From Candidatus Aenigmatarchaeota archaeon (GTDB taxonomy: Archaea > Aenigmatarchaeota > Aenigmatarchaeia > CG10238-14 > SpSt-28): a stretch of DNA of 41,086 nt. A program made the position numbers and the translations under genes. The stretch is taken from assembly GCA_018920305.1 (NCBI GenBank), contig JAHLMO010000004.1, positions 1 to 41,086 of the forward strand, written 5' to 3'. This document shows, one piece after another, positions 1,827 through 28,599 of this stretch. Position 1 is the first letter of the stretch. Each line of letters starts with the position of its first letter. The notes beneath the pieces are model-generated. The model saw nothing but the letters and a program-made list of their open reading frames with translations, did no database searches and was not told the DNA's origin.

Positions 1827-4238
1827 CTATTGACTAATTCTAACGATGTATCCTCTTATTGGTTTTTTTGCCTCGAGATAAGCGCCCGTATTTAATTTCA
1901 TTTCGATTTCTTTTTCTTCTAAATTTTTTCTTTTTAGATAATCTAAGAATTTTCTAGATGTTTCGTTCATAACATTTGTATTAAATATTACAATCTCAAC
2001 TCCCCATTCTTTTGCTCTTTCAATTAAATCTCTATAAACAATTTCAAATATCTCTTCTTTTCTGAATCTTCTATGCCCTTCTATAGAATCAACTAATAGT
2101 TTCTTATCTTCCAAGTAACAAATTGCACTTCCTAATGTTTTATTTCCAATATCGTATTTTATCAATTTAATTCTATCGTCTTTACAATATTTAAGAATTC
2201 CATCTTCCATACGCGCTCCATAAGGAAGATAAACGCAAGCCATTTGTATTCTATTATCATAATCTAAAGGATTCTTACTCTCAACAGCTTTGACAACATT
2301 ACTATTTATATTTACATCTCTATAGTTAATCGCGTTAATAACATCGATTATTGCTTCATTATTCGTTTGTTTTAGTATACTAATTGCTTTTTCATAATTT
2401 TTTTCATTAAAAGCGTTTGCTATTTCTCTAATTAAGTTTCTATAATTTTTATAAAACTCATTTCTTGCCCTATTTACTGTTTTTTCTCCAACAATACTAG
2501 AAATAATTTTTATAGCTTCCTTTTCGAGGTTTTTATTTTTCGAACCAACTATAGCTATAATAGAGTATTTTTCGAGATCTTTTCTACTATAATTCAGAGA
2601 ATTGTCTCCATCTTTTATAGAGAGGGAGTAGTACTTAGGATTTACTTCTTTTGAAATATTTACTAAATTAATAATTTCTTCTCTAAGATGTCTCTGAGTG
2701 CTAAATAATAGCAATAATTGATCATAATTTATATCTTTTTTTAGACCATACTTACTTTTTAGATGATTTAATGCTAAATCTAAATAATTATCTATGTTAT
2801 TTTTTGTTGGTAGTGGAAGCTCTTTATTTGATTTTATGTAAATAGCAATAGCATAAAGATCTTTTTTGTCTCTAACTAAATTATCTAATCCAAGATTGAT
2901 TACTTTATATAATTCGCGACTACTAAAAAAATCAAAAATATCTTCACCAAATTTTTCAGTAAATCTTATTAGTCTAGTTACTTTCGAAGCATCTCTTAAT
3001 TCAGTTATAGCATAAACAATCCTTATAGCGACTTCTTCAGCGGTAACTCCTTTATATTTTTTAATAACATTAACAACTTCATCCATTCCAAGTATTTTAC
3101 CAATTCTAATGGCTTCATTTTCATCTTCTGATTCGTAAAAAGTAGCAACTATTAAATCTACAATTTCTCTAGCAACACTTCCTTCATATTTTCTAATAGT
3201 ATTAACAACTTCATCCATTCCAAGTATTCTGCTAATTTTAGCAACTTCATCTTTATTTCTTGAGGCATGAGCTGCAGCGCCAATCCATATAGCAACTTCT
3301 TCAGCAGCAACTCCTTCATATTTTCTAATAGTATTAACAACTTCATCCATTCCAAGTATTCTGCTAATTTTAACAATTTCATCTTTATTTCCTAGCTCAT
3401 AGGCAGAAATAGCTATTCTATAAGCGATTTCTTTAGCAATGCTTCCTTCATATTTTTCAATAGTTCTAGCTATTTCAATAAGTGCCTCTTCATCCCTTAA
3501 TTCATAAGCAGTGGTAGCTATTCTATCAGCGATTTCTTTAGCAATGTCTTCTTCATATTTTCTAATAACATTAACAACTTCATCCATTCCAAGTATTCTG
3601 CTAATTTTAACAATTTCATCTTTGTCTCTTAATAGATAAGCAACAAAAGCTATTTTATTAGCAATTTTTCTAGCAACATTTCCTTCATATTTTTCAATAG
3701 TTCTAGCTATTTCAATAAGTGCCTCTTCATCTCTTAATTCATAAGCAATACGAGCTATCCAATCAGCAACTTCTCTAGCAACACTTTCTTCATATTTTCT
3801 AATAACATTAACAACTTCATCCATTCCAAGTATTCTGCTAATTTTAACAACTTCGTCTTCGTTTCTTAATATATAGGCAGCATTAGCTATTCTATCAGCG
3901 ATTTCTTTAGCGGGAGAACCTTTATATTTTCTAATAGTATTAACAACTTCATCCATTCCAAGTATTCTGCTAATTTTAACAACTTCATCTTTATTTCTTA
4001 TTCGATGAGCAGCAATAGCTATTCTAGCAGCAATTTCTTTAGCAACATCTTCTTCATATTTTTCGATTGTATCTCTAATTTCTTTGTTAGCTAATATTTC
4101 AATTACTTTTTCATCTTCAAGAATACTTGGACTAACGCCTAAATTTTCAAATAATCTTTTCGTTTCGAAAAGTTCTTCAGCGAGTTCTTTATTCTGTTTT
4201 TTTGTTGTGTTTTCTCCCATCATGATATATGTTATCAC
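1827..4238 (-). CDS. Large helical-repeat protein with C-terminal globular domain (possible GNAT-like fold)
   Basis: Same N-terminus as 839-1687 product; alternating 44- and 35-aa repeats; C-terminal non-repeat region (ACVYLPYGARMEDG...LLVDSIEGHRRFRKEEIFEIVYRDLIERAKEWGVEIVIFNTNVMNETSRKFLDYL). Start may be the internal MMGEN (4220). Confidence 0.7.
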   Translation of the reverse strand: MITYIMMGENTTKKQNKELAEELFETKRLFENLGVSPSILEDEKVIEILANKEIRDTIEKYEEDVAKEIAARIAIAAHRIRNKDEVVKISRILGMDEVVNTIRKYKGSPAKEIADRIANAAYILRNEDEVVKISRILGMDEVVNVIRKYEESVAREVADWIARIAYELRDEEALIEIARTIEKYEGNVARKIANKIAFVAYLLRDKDEIVKISRILGMDEVVNVIRKYEEDIAKEIADRIATTAYELRDEEALIEIARTIEKYEGSIAKEIAYRIAISAYELGNKDEIVKISRILGMDEVVNTIRKYEGVAAEEVAIWIGAAAHASRNKDEVAKISRILGMDEVVNTIRKYEGSVAREIVDLIVATFYESEDENEAIRIGKILGMDEVVNVIKKYKGVTAEEVAIRIVYAITELRDASKVTRLIRFTEKFGEDIFDFFSSRELYKVINLGLDNLVRDKKDLYAIAIYIKSNKELPLPTKNNIDNYLDLALNHLKSKYGLKKDINYDQLLLLFSTQRHLREEIINLVNISKEVNPKYYSLSIKDGDNSLNYSRKDLEKYSIIAIVGSKNKNLEKEAIKIISSIVGEKTVNRARNEFYKNYRNLIREIANAFNEKNYEKAISILKQTNNEAIIDVINAINYRDVNINSNVVKAVESKNPLDYDNRIQMACVYLPYGARMEDGILKYCKDDRIKLIKYDIGNKTLGSAICYLEDKKLLVDSIEGHRRFRKEEIFEIVYRDLIERAKEWGVEIVIFNTNVMNETSRKFLDYLKRKNLEEKEIEMKLNTGAYLEAKKPIRGYIVRISQ
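2959..4220 (-). repeat. Tandem intragenic repeat array, 132-bp and 105-bp units
   Basis: ATCCATTCC landmark occurs at 3081, 3213, 3345, 3582, 3819 and 3951; spacings are 132, 132, 237 (=132+105), 237 and 132. Confidence 0.85.
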
Positions 4239-25555: not shown

Positions 25556-25588
25556 GAGGGAGATACAAGATAATATTCGGGTTGGTGG
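25556..25588 (+). other. 5' strand of the pre-23S bulge-helix-bulge processing stem
   Basis: GAGGGAGATACAAGA-TAAT-ATT-CGGGTTGGTGG, complementary to 28589-28621. Confidence 0.85.
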
Positions 25589-28500
25589 TGCTAAGCCCGC
25601 CGGGGGATGCCTCGGCTCGGGAGCCGAAGAAGGGCGTGCCAAGCTGCGATAAGCCCGGGGTAGGCGCATGGAGCCTTTGATCCCGGGATCCCCGAATGGG
25701 AATCCTGCTAGGGATTTAAGATCCCTAGCACTCGGGCTTTATGCTCGAGGGGGAACGGGGGGAAGTGAAGCATCTCAGTACCCCCAGGAAAAGAAATCAA
25801 TAGAGATGCCGGGAGTAGGGGCGACCGAAACCGGCACAGGGCAAACCGAACTCTATAGCGATGAGCTATAGGGGATGTGGAGTTGTAGGACCCGGGTCTA
25901 CCCTTCCTCCCATATCCGAAGTCCGCTAGAATGCGGCGCCGTAGAGGGTGATAGCCCCGTAGGAGAAATGGGAGGGGGGTAATGCCGGGTATTCTGAGTA
26001 CCACTGCGTGGTTTCGCAGTGGGAAGCTGGGGGGCATTACCCTCCAACTCTAAATACTCCCCGAGTCCGATAGCGAACTAAGTATCGTGAGAGAAAGGTG
26101 AAAAGAACTGCGTGAGCAGAGTGAAAAGAGCCTGAAACCGGCGGGCGACGGTTAGCCATGGCCCAAAAGCTTACCTCCTCTAAAGAGCTAAATACTCGAA
26201 GAGGGGGTAGCGGGGTCATGGCGTCCGTGTTGAAAAACGGGCCAGGGAGTGTGGGGGAGTGGCGAGCTTAAGAGAATTAATCTCGAAAGCGTAGCGAAAG
26301 CGATTTCCCGCAGCGCATATGCGCGAGGGGAAAGGTCTTAAAGGGCCTTAAGTCACTTCCCCACAACCGGAAGCCGGGCGATCTAGGCCGGGGCAGGGTG
26401 AAGGGGGTTAATAACCCCTGGAGGTCCGAAGGGGTGGTGAGATGCCAGTCTCTCCTCTGACCCCGGTCTAGGGGTGATAAGCCAAACGAGCCCGGGCATA
26501 GCCGGTTCCCCCCGAAATAGTCCACAGGCTAGCCTCCCTGGAGCATTCCTGGCGTGTAGAGTTACTGATTGAACGATAAGGGCCGAAAGGCCTGGTCGTT
26601 CAGTCAAACTCCGAAGCACCAGGATGCGAAGAAGGGGGGAGTTGGGGTGCTGGGGAAAGCTCGGCATCCGAAAGGGGAACAACCCAGTCCCGGGTTAAGG
26701 TCCCAAAGTGGTCTCTAAGTGCCGAAGGGGTCAACCCCCTTAGACAGCGGGGCCGTAGGCCTAGAAGTAGCCATCGGCTAAAAAGTGTGTAACAACTTAC
26801 CCGCCGAGGGGGTTGGCCTTGAAAATGGAAGGGACTAAGAGACTCACCGAGACCCGGGACCACCTAGCTGAGCTAGGTGGTGGTAGGGGGGCGTGCTATG
26901 GGTTGAGAAGGGGGTGAGTGATCATCCCTGGAACCCATAGCAATGCAGATCCTGGCAGCAGTAGCAGCTTAGTGGGGTGAAAATCCCCACTCCCTTAGGG
27001 GCAAGGGTTTGCCGGCAATGTTCGTCAGCCGGCAGTTAGCCGGTCCTAAGGGCAGGGCTAATCTACCTGCCCGAAAGGGAAACCGGTTAATATTCCGGTG
27101 CCACCCCCATACATGCGGCAACGCAAGCCCTGTTGGTGACGCCTCGGGCTAGGCGGAGGTAACCCAAGCCTATAAGCCCCCGAAGTCTCGTAATGAGGAG
27201 AAGGGGGTGAAATGGCGATGGGCCTGGTGTATGCCAGGTTCCGCCGATGCCTGGGGCCTGTGAAAAGCCAACAGGGAAGGATTGGGGGCGACCGTACCGA
27301 GAACCGACACAGGTGCCCTGGCTGAGAAGGCTAAGGGGGTGCGGGATAACCCGCCCTAGGGAACTCGGCAAGTTGGCCCCGTATGTTCGCTAGAAGGGGT
27401 GCCTGGACTCCTGAACTATCGCTCAGCGAAAAGCTGGGTGATAGCTAGGGAGCCCAGGTCGCAGTGACAAGGGGAGGGCGACTGTTTAACAAAAACATAG
27501 GGGGCTGCAAGCCCGAAAGGGTGTGTACAGCCCCTGAGGTCTGCCCAGCGGGGGTGTGTGAAAGCCGGTTCCAACCGGCTGAAGCCACCCCCGAGCGGCG
27601 GCGGTAACCCTGACCGTCGTAAAGTACCGTAATTCCTTGCCGCTTAATTGGCGGCCAGGGAACGGCTTAACGACCCTCCCACTGTCCCAGGGCGGGACCC
27701 GGCGAAAATACCATCCTGGTGAATAGGCTAGGGACCTCCAGCGGGAAGCGAAGACCCCGTGGAGCTTTACTGCAGCCTGGCGTTGCCCTCTGGGTAAGGA
27801 TACGTAGAGTAGGTGGGAGCAATGAAGATGTGGCTCCGGCTACATCGGATGCGAAAGTGAAACACCACCTATCCTTACCTAGGGGGCTAACTCGGATGAG
27901 GACAGCGCCAGGTGGGCAGTTCGGCTGGGGCGGCTCCCTTCGAAAAGATATCGGAGGGGCCCAAAGGTCAGCTCAGGCGGGTCAGAAATCCGCCGTAGAG
28001 TGCAAGGGCAAAAGCTGGCCTGACTGGATCCCGACAACAAGGGATCCAGAGGCGAAAGCCGGGCCTAGCGATACGCTGGTTGCCTGTAATGGGCGCCAGC
28101 GGTAACGGAAAAGCTACCCCGGGGATAATGGGTCCGTGGCCGGCGAGAGTCCATATCGACCCGGCGCGTTGATACGTAGATGTCGGCTCCCCCCCTCCTG
28201 GGCGTGCAGAAGCGCCCAAGGGTACAGGTGCCCACTGGTTAAAGGGGGACGTTAGCTGGGTTCAGAACGTGGTGACACAGTTCGGCCGGTATCTGCTGGG
28301 GGTGCAGGGGGCCTGACCGGAACGACCTCCTAGTACGAAAGGAACGGAGGTCGGGGGCCTCTGGTGTACCGGTTGTTAATCGCAAGCCGGGCAGCTACGC
28401 CCCAGTGGATAAGCCCTGAAAGCATCTAAGGGCGAAGTCACCCGGGAAAACAGGCCCCCAATCGTACTGCTGGGAGAAATCCCGGCAGTACGACGAAGCC

Positions 28501-28599
28501 CCTCCTAGACGAGGAGGTTGATGGGGTGGGGGTGTAAGCGTCGAGCTTTCGAGCGAGGCGCGAGCCCGCCACTCCCAATAAGGCTAGGCCACCAACCCG
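25578..28599 (+). rRNA. rrl: 23S (large subunit) ribosomal RNA; mature ends approximate
   Basis: Recognisable LSU blocks: P-loop GCTGGGGCGGCTCCC, GAAGACCCCGTGGAGCTTTACTGCAGCCTG, CTACCCCGGGGATAA, AGCTGGGTTCAGAACG, CCTAGTACGAAAGGAACGGAGG; terminal complementary stem; high GC island. Confidence 0.97.

Follow-up and report, generated by a model that had tools for sequence, protein, structure and literature searches.

In the peptidyl transferase centre (PTC) of E. coli, the bases C2501, A2450 and C2063 form a pocket by the P-site tRNA and are, of the whole PTC ring, the least flexible towards mutation (PMC7049736), and second-shell contacts have been described between positions 2452 and 2504, 2452 and 2500, and 2453 and 2499 (PMC4652758). 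Among archaea, a Pyrobaculum ribosome with a 'divergent active site' has been reported (Nissley et al. 2025, Nat Microbiol, as cited by PMC12605026 and PMC13324472), and PDB entry 9E71 is the ribosome of Pyrobaculum calidifontis (PMC12605026). The uL3 of entries 9E6Q, 9E71 and 9E7F is 100% identical to that of a genome (G455) whose LSU rRNA (L159) reads A2447, A2450, A2451, C2452, C2453, C2499, C2500, A2501, G2502, A2503, C2504 and C2063; a solved ribosome therefore exists from an organism with A2501. This genome belongs to the class of genome G278 (LSU L116), in which A2501 is widespread, with a pattern match in 48 of the 81 genomes, most reading the LSU string TTGGTACCCAGACGTCGTCT and a minority among those listed being unrelated sequence. 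No mention of C2501A, C2501U or C2501G was found in the literature searched.

The window analysed here, a stretch of DNA comprising positions 1-41,086 to which all coordinates refer, derives from an uncultured Aenigmatarchaeota archaeon and carries an LSU rRNA gene with the following features (bases in E. coli numbering):

25556..25588, + strand: 5' arm of the LSU processing stem (33-nt inverted repeat)
25579..28598, + strand: LSU (23S) rRNA gene, archaeal type, intact and intron-free (RF02540 1-2987 of 2987, 2593.4 bits)
28121..28190, + strand: helix 89 with the strands of the PTC loop (roughly E. coli 2444-2513), from gapless alignment to RF02540 and E. coli L038
28129..28130, + strand: U2452 and G2453 (E. 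coli: C and A), phylum-standard (67/73 and 65/73 rows)
28176, + strand: G2499 (E. coli: C), partner position of 2453, commonest phylum state (39/73), in 0/52 other archaeal LSUs sampled
28178, + strand: A2501 (E. coli: C), rare (2/73 phylum rows; 2/52 other archaeal rows, L116 and L133)
28180, + strand: A2503, canonical base yet atypical in the phylum (A in 3/73 phylum rows)
28253, + strand: U2576 (E. coli: G), phylum-wide (73/73 phylum rows; 10/52 other archaeal rows)
28286, + strand: C2609 (E. coli: U), tunnel entrance, common to the window and L019
28589..28621, + strand: 3' arm of the LSU processing stem (33-nt inverted repeat)

The LSU gene is a full-length match to RF02540 above the gathering score (cmscan; 2593.4 bits vs a cut-off of 50), it scores near the top of all phylum rows, and it is the sole LSU match in the source genome (553,587 bases, 94.8% complete, 19 contigs). 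It is flanked by the two arms of the processing stem, which are 91% complementary and lie 3000 nt apart, and is neighboured by a gene for a TRM-family tRNA methyltransferase on one side and by those for RNA polymerase subunits N and K (RpoN, RpoK) on the other; these archaeal flanking genes place the LSU gene on an archaeal chromosome. Among named relatives the closest is Candidatus Aenigmatarchaeota contig JAPLUY010000043.1 (L033), which is identical, across the compared domain V segments, to the LSU (L022) of a genome of the window's order (G031), and by which the window LSU groups with the named Aenigmatarchaeota. Elsewhere in the window, two adjacent genes on the minus strand (839-1687 and 1827-4238) encode long proteins composed of a degenerate repeat (VKISRILGMDEVVNTIRKYEG...), the first of which gave weak Pfam matches only.

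From GGGGATAA to GGCTC, the window and E. coli 23S (L038) have segments of equal length, 69 nt, so that E. coli numbering could be transferred directly, with A2451 at position 28128 by gapless alignment. A preliminary description of this DNA had correctly placed 2451 there and 2501 at 28178, and its observation of four non-canonical PTC bases (U2452, G2453, G2499 and A2501, within 28121-28190) is confirmed: the sequence reads as quoted, the PTC aligns with the covariance model RF02540 without gaps (cmscan), and the same alignment agrees that A2451, A2503, U2504, G2505 and U2506 are retained. The catalytic core is complete, with A2450, A2451, C2063, G2061, G2502, G2505 and U2506 all present, and A2503 and U2504 are likewise conserved. 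The flanks of helix 89 pair, as had been claimed, with G2455-U2496, U2456-A2495 and C2457-G2494 at its base; standard pairs occupy these positions in 69/73, 68/73 and 72/73 phylum rows, respectively, and the pair 2456-2495 occurs as G-C, C-G, U-A and A-U across the 73 rows. Two pairs higher in the helix are flagged as non-standard by cmscan, and helix 89 was not recovered by folding 28129-28178 alone (z = 0.52), which says little about it because the helix forms in the context of domain V. Absent from the preliminary description were U2576 (28253), A2661 (28339), C2609 (28286) and the unusualness of A2503 within the phylum. The sarcin-ricin loop (28332-28345) reads GAAA for GAGA, with A2661 phylum-wide and A also present in 11/52 other archaeal rows, and helix 93 carries a compensated C2594G/G2599C swap (28271, 28276), shared by the window and L019, alongside U2609C.

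The distribution of these bases within the Aenigmatarchaeota was surveyed in 156 genomes, which yielded 73 LSU rows. As many relatives are interrupted by introns close to 2449-2451 and within helix 89, their LSUs were projected onto the window by intron-allowing (spliced) alignment, and the counts of U2452 (67/73) and G2453 (65/73) are to be read with the caveat that bases beside intron junctions may be misassigned in some relatives. Position 2499 is G in 39 and U in 28 of the 73 rows, 2501 is C in 71 and A in two (the window and L019), 2503 is C in 50, U in 20 and A in three, 2504 is C in 14, and 2576 is U throughout. A phylum clade (L073-L083 and L017) shows U2504C together with U2452, C2500 and C2503. 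Introns of about 40-700 nt are present at the 2449/2450 equivalent, inside the PTC loop, in many members of the phylum (e.g. L013, L018, L025, L041), and the window has none. One apparent match (L067, in G132) was rejected as not being rRNA, and the assemblies of G001 and G004, from the window's family, yielded no LSU match. The identical 3' strand TTGATACGTAGATGTCGGCT, A2501 and A2503 included, is carried by L019, from a genome (G002) of a different, sister genus of the same family. With the PTC columns left out, an LSU tree pairs the window (L001) with L019 at full SH-aLRT support and places L015 (same family, C2501/U2503) next to them, a topology indicating that A2501 arose once inside the phylum, with A2503 on the same branch.

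Outside the phylum, 52 LSUs, nearly all of different archaeal families, were compared. Position 2452 is C in 40 of them, U in nine and G in two; 2453 is A in 21, U in 20, G in six and C in four; 2499 is U in 20, C in 19 and A in 13, with G2499 not seen among the 52; 2503 is A in 27, C in 23 and U in two; 2576 is G in 41 and U in 10; and 2501 is C in 50 and A in two (L116 and L133). On a 105-row LSU tree, at least 12 changes were counted at 2452, 17 at 2453, 25 at 2499, 20 at 2503 and three at 2501. From these base and change counts it follows that neither C2452 nor A2503 comes close to universality in archaea, and that A2501 alone is rare. The earlier statement that C2452 is nearly universal thus fails in archaea, where U2452 is found in 67/73 phylum rows and 9/52 other LSUs. 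Likewise, the bases had been presented as exceptional, with the proviso that they might prove standard across many archaeal lineages: the proviso applies to U2452 and to variation at 2453 and 2499, and comparison with related genomes, which had been proposed as a check, shows U2452, G2453 and G2499 to be the commonest states of the phylum, but A2501, confined there to the window and L019, stays rare. The second case of A2501 outside the phylum, L133 (G305, from a small-genome lineage), combines it with G2452, U2503, C2504 and U2505. The small-genome archaea L127, L133 and L135 all have U2505, two of them also C2447, and their PTCs are far more divergent than that of the window. Scanning GTDB for the pattern of U2452 with NGG after it gave seven matches, of which two are LSU (L033, Aenigmatarchaeota; L032, Neobacillus mesonae) and the remaining five were rejected as giving no alignment as rRNA. 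The Neobacillus mesonae match (L032:6022-6041) is a bacterial 23S copy with U2452 in an otherwise canonical PTC.

The reading that we favour, with a probability of roughly 0.88, is that the gene encodes a working 50S rRNA in which the second shell of the PTC has drifted with the catalytic and tRNA-contacting bases fixed, and which would be lineage-typical apart from A2501. In this reading A2450, A2451, C2063, G2061, G2502, G2505 and U2506 stayed fixed, U2452, G2453, G2499 and U2576 represent the phylum background, and along the branch leading to the window's genus and its sister genus both C2501 and position 2503 changed to A. A2501 takes the place of the third base of the C2501.A2450.C2063 pocket beside the P-site tRNA. 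With A2501 tolerated by Pyrobaculum and its relatives, as well as by the L133 lineage, we infer that the pocket takes a purine at this position by rearranging locally and that the chemistry of peptide-bond formation stays the same. Since C2501 ranks as one of the three least mutable bases of the E. coli PTC, the change to A2501 stands out as a notable case of convergence. For the same reason A2501 may need compensation, a point that weighs against this reading.

That the odd bases are assembly or sequencing errors is extremely improbable: the source genome is a 19-contig assembly, but independent genomes agree with it, G002 having the same haplotype and U2452, G2453 and G2499 being phylum-wide. 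Just as improbable is a decaying rRNA pseudogene with a working copy elsewhere, which divergence at positions thought essential might suggest, since this is the only LSU match in a 94.8% complete genome, its 2593 bits rank with the highest scores in the phylum, its processing stem is intact and its helix-89 pairs are conserved. The earlier view that the rRNA is divergent yet functional, and not decaying, is supported: the gene is full-length and single-copy and has a processing stem, its pairing is conserved and relatives carry the same bases. Resistance is a further candidate explanation, positions 2452, 2453, 2499 and 2576 being linked to linezolid or other PTC drugs. C2452U and G2576U are resistance changes, the latter being the classical clinical linezolid-resistance change. 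In other organisms, C2499A with G2032A and other PTC substitutions gives linezolid resistance (PMC4652758). Selection of the bases of the window as resistance to PTC antibiotics is nevertheless highly unlikely, as they are phylum-wide and recurrent in many archaea and the window holds no sign of drug exposure; resistance may be a by-product of these bases.

A refinement compatible with second-shell drift is that A2501 is coupled to A2503 in a compensated pair, the pocket having been remodelled as a unit, perhaps with C2609 and the 2594/2599 swap. The changes at 2501 and 2503 fall on one branch, C2609 and G2594/C2599 are also common to the window and L019, and A2501 accompanies A2503 in the Pyrobaculum class too. 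However, L133 has A2501 with U2503, C2501 with A2503 is common elsewhere, and the three origins of A2501 on the tree are too few for a test, so that we consider such coupling possible but doubtful. Among the results listed for coupled changes on the 105-row tree (2452-2504, 2453-2499, 2501-2500, 2452-2576 and others) none was significant, and no compensating partner is therefore claimed.

The PTC is often treated as frozen, and the archaeal survey reveals a small fixed core amid many second-shell positions that vary repeatedly (2448, 2452, 2453, 2499, 2500, 2503, 2504 and 2576); three or more changes are counted even at 2501, one of the positions that mutate least readily in E. coli. For ribosome engineering, the base combinations of natural PTCs offer starting points that are already tested, and PTC variants in metagenomes should not be assumed to be errors or resistance mutations.

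When compared with known systems, the window shares with the RF02540 consensus and E. coli 23S the overall fold and A2450, A2451, G2502, A2503, U2504, G2505 and U2506, whereas the consensus has C2452, a2453, c2499, C2501, G2576 and G2661. Other Aenigmatarchaeota LSUs (e.g. L033) share U2452, G2453, mostly G2499 or U2499, U2576 and A2661, but carry C2501 and C or U at 2503 in place of A2501 and A2503. Linezolid-type PTC resistance substitutions involve the same second- and third-shell network positions 2452, 2453 and 2499, but the bases of the window are a fixed phylum background, and G2499 and A2501 were not found described in that work (PMC4652758). Pyrobaculum shares A2501 in the 2063/2450/2501 pocket, together with A2503, A2450, A2451, C2063 and G2505, but has A2447, C2452, C2453, C2499, C2500 and C2504 where the window has G2447, U2452, G2453, G2499, U2500 and U2504, along with U2576. 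Tentatively, and at somewhat less than even odds, the window's family may have evolved a purine at 2501 independently of Pyrobaculum, as a second natural solution on the background G2447/U2452/G2453.G2499/U2504/U2576 and together with A2503, with a PTC geometry that would be unlike that of every solved ribosome. Natural PTC divergence of this kind is already known, and what is new here is the combination of bases.
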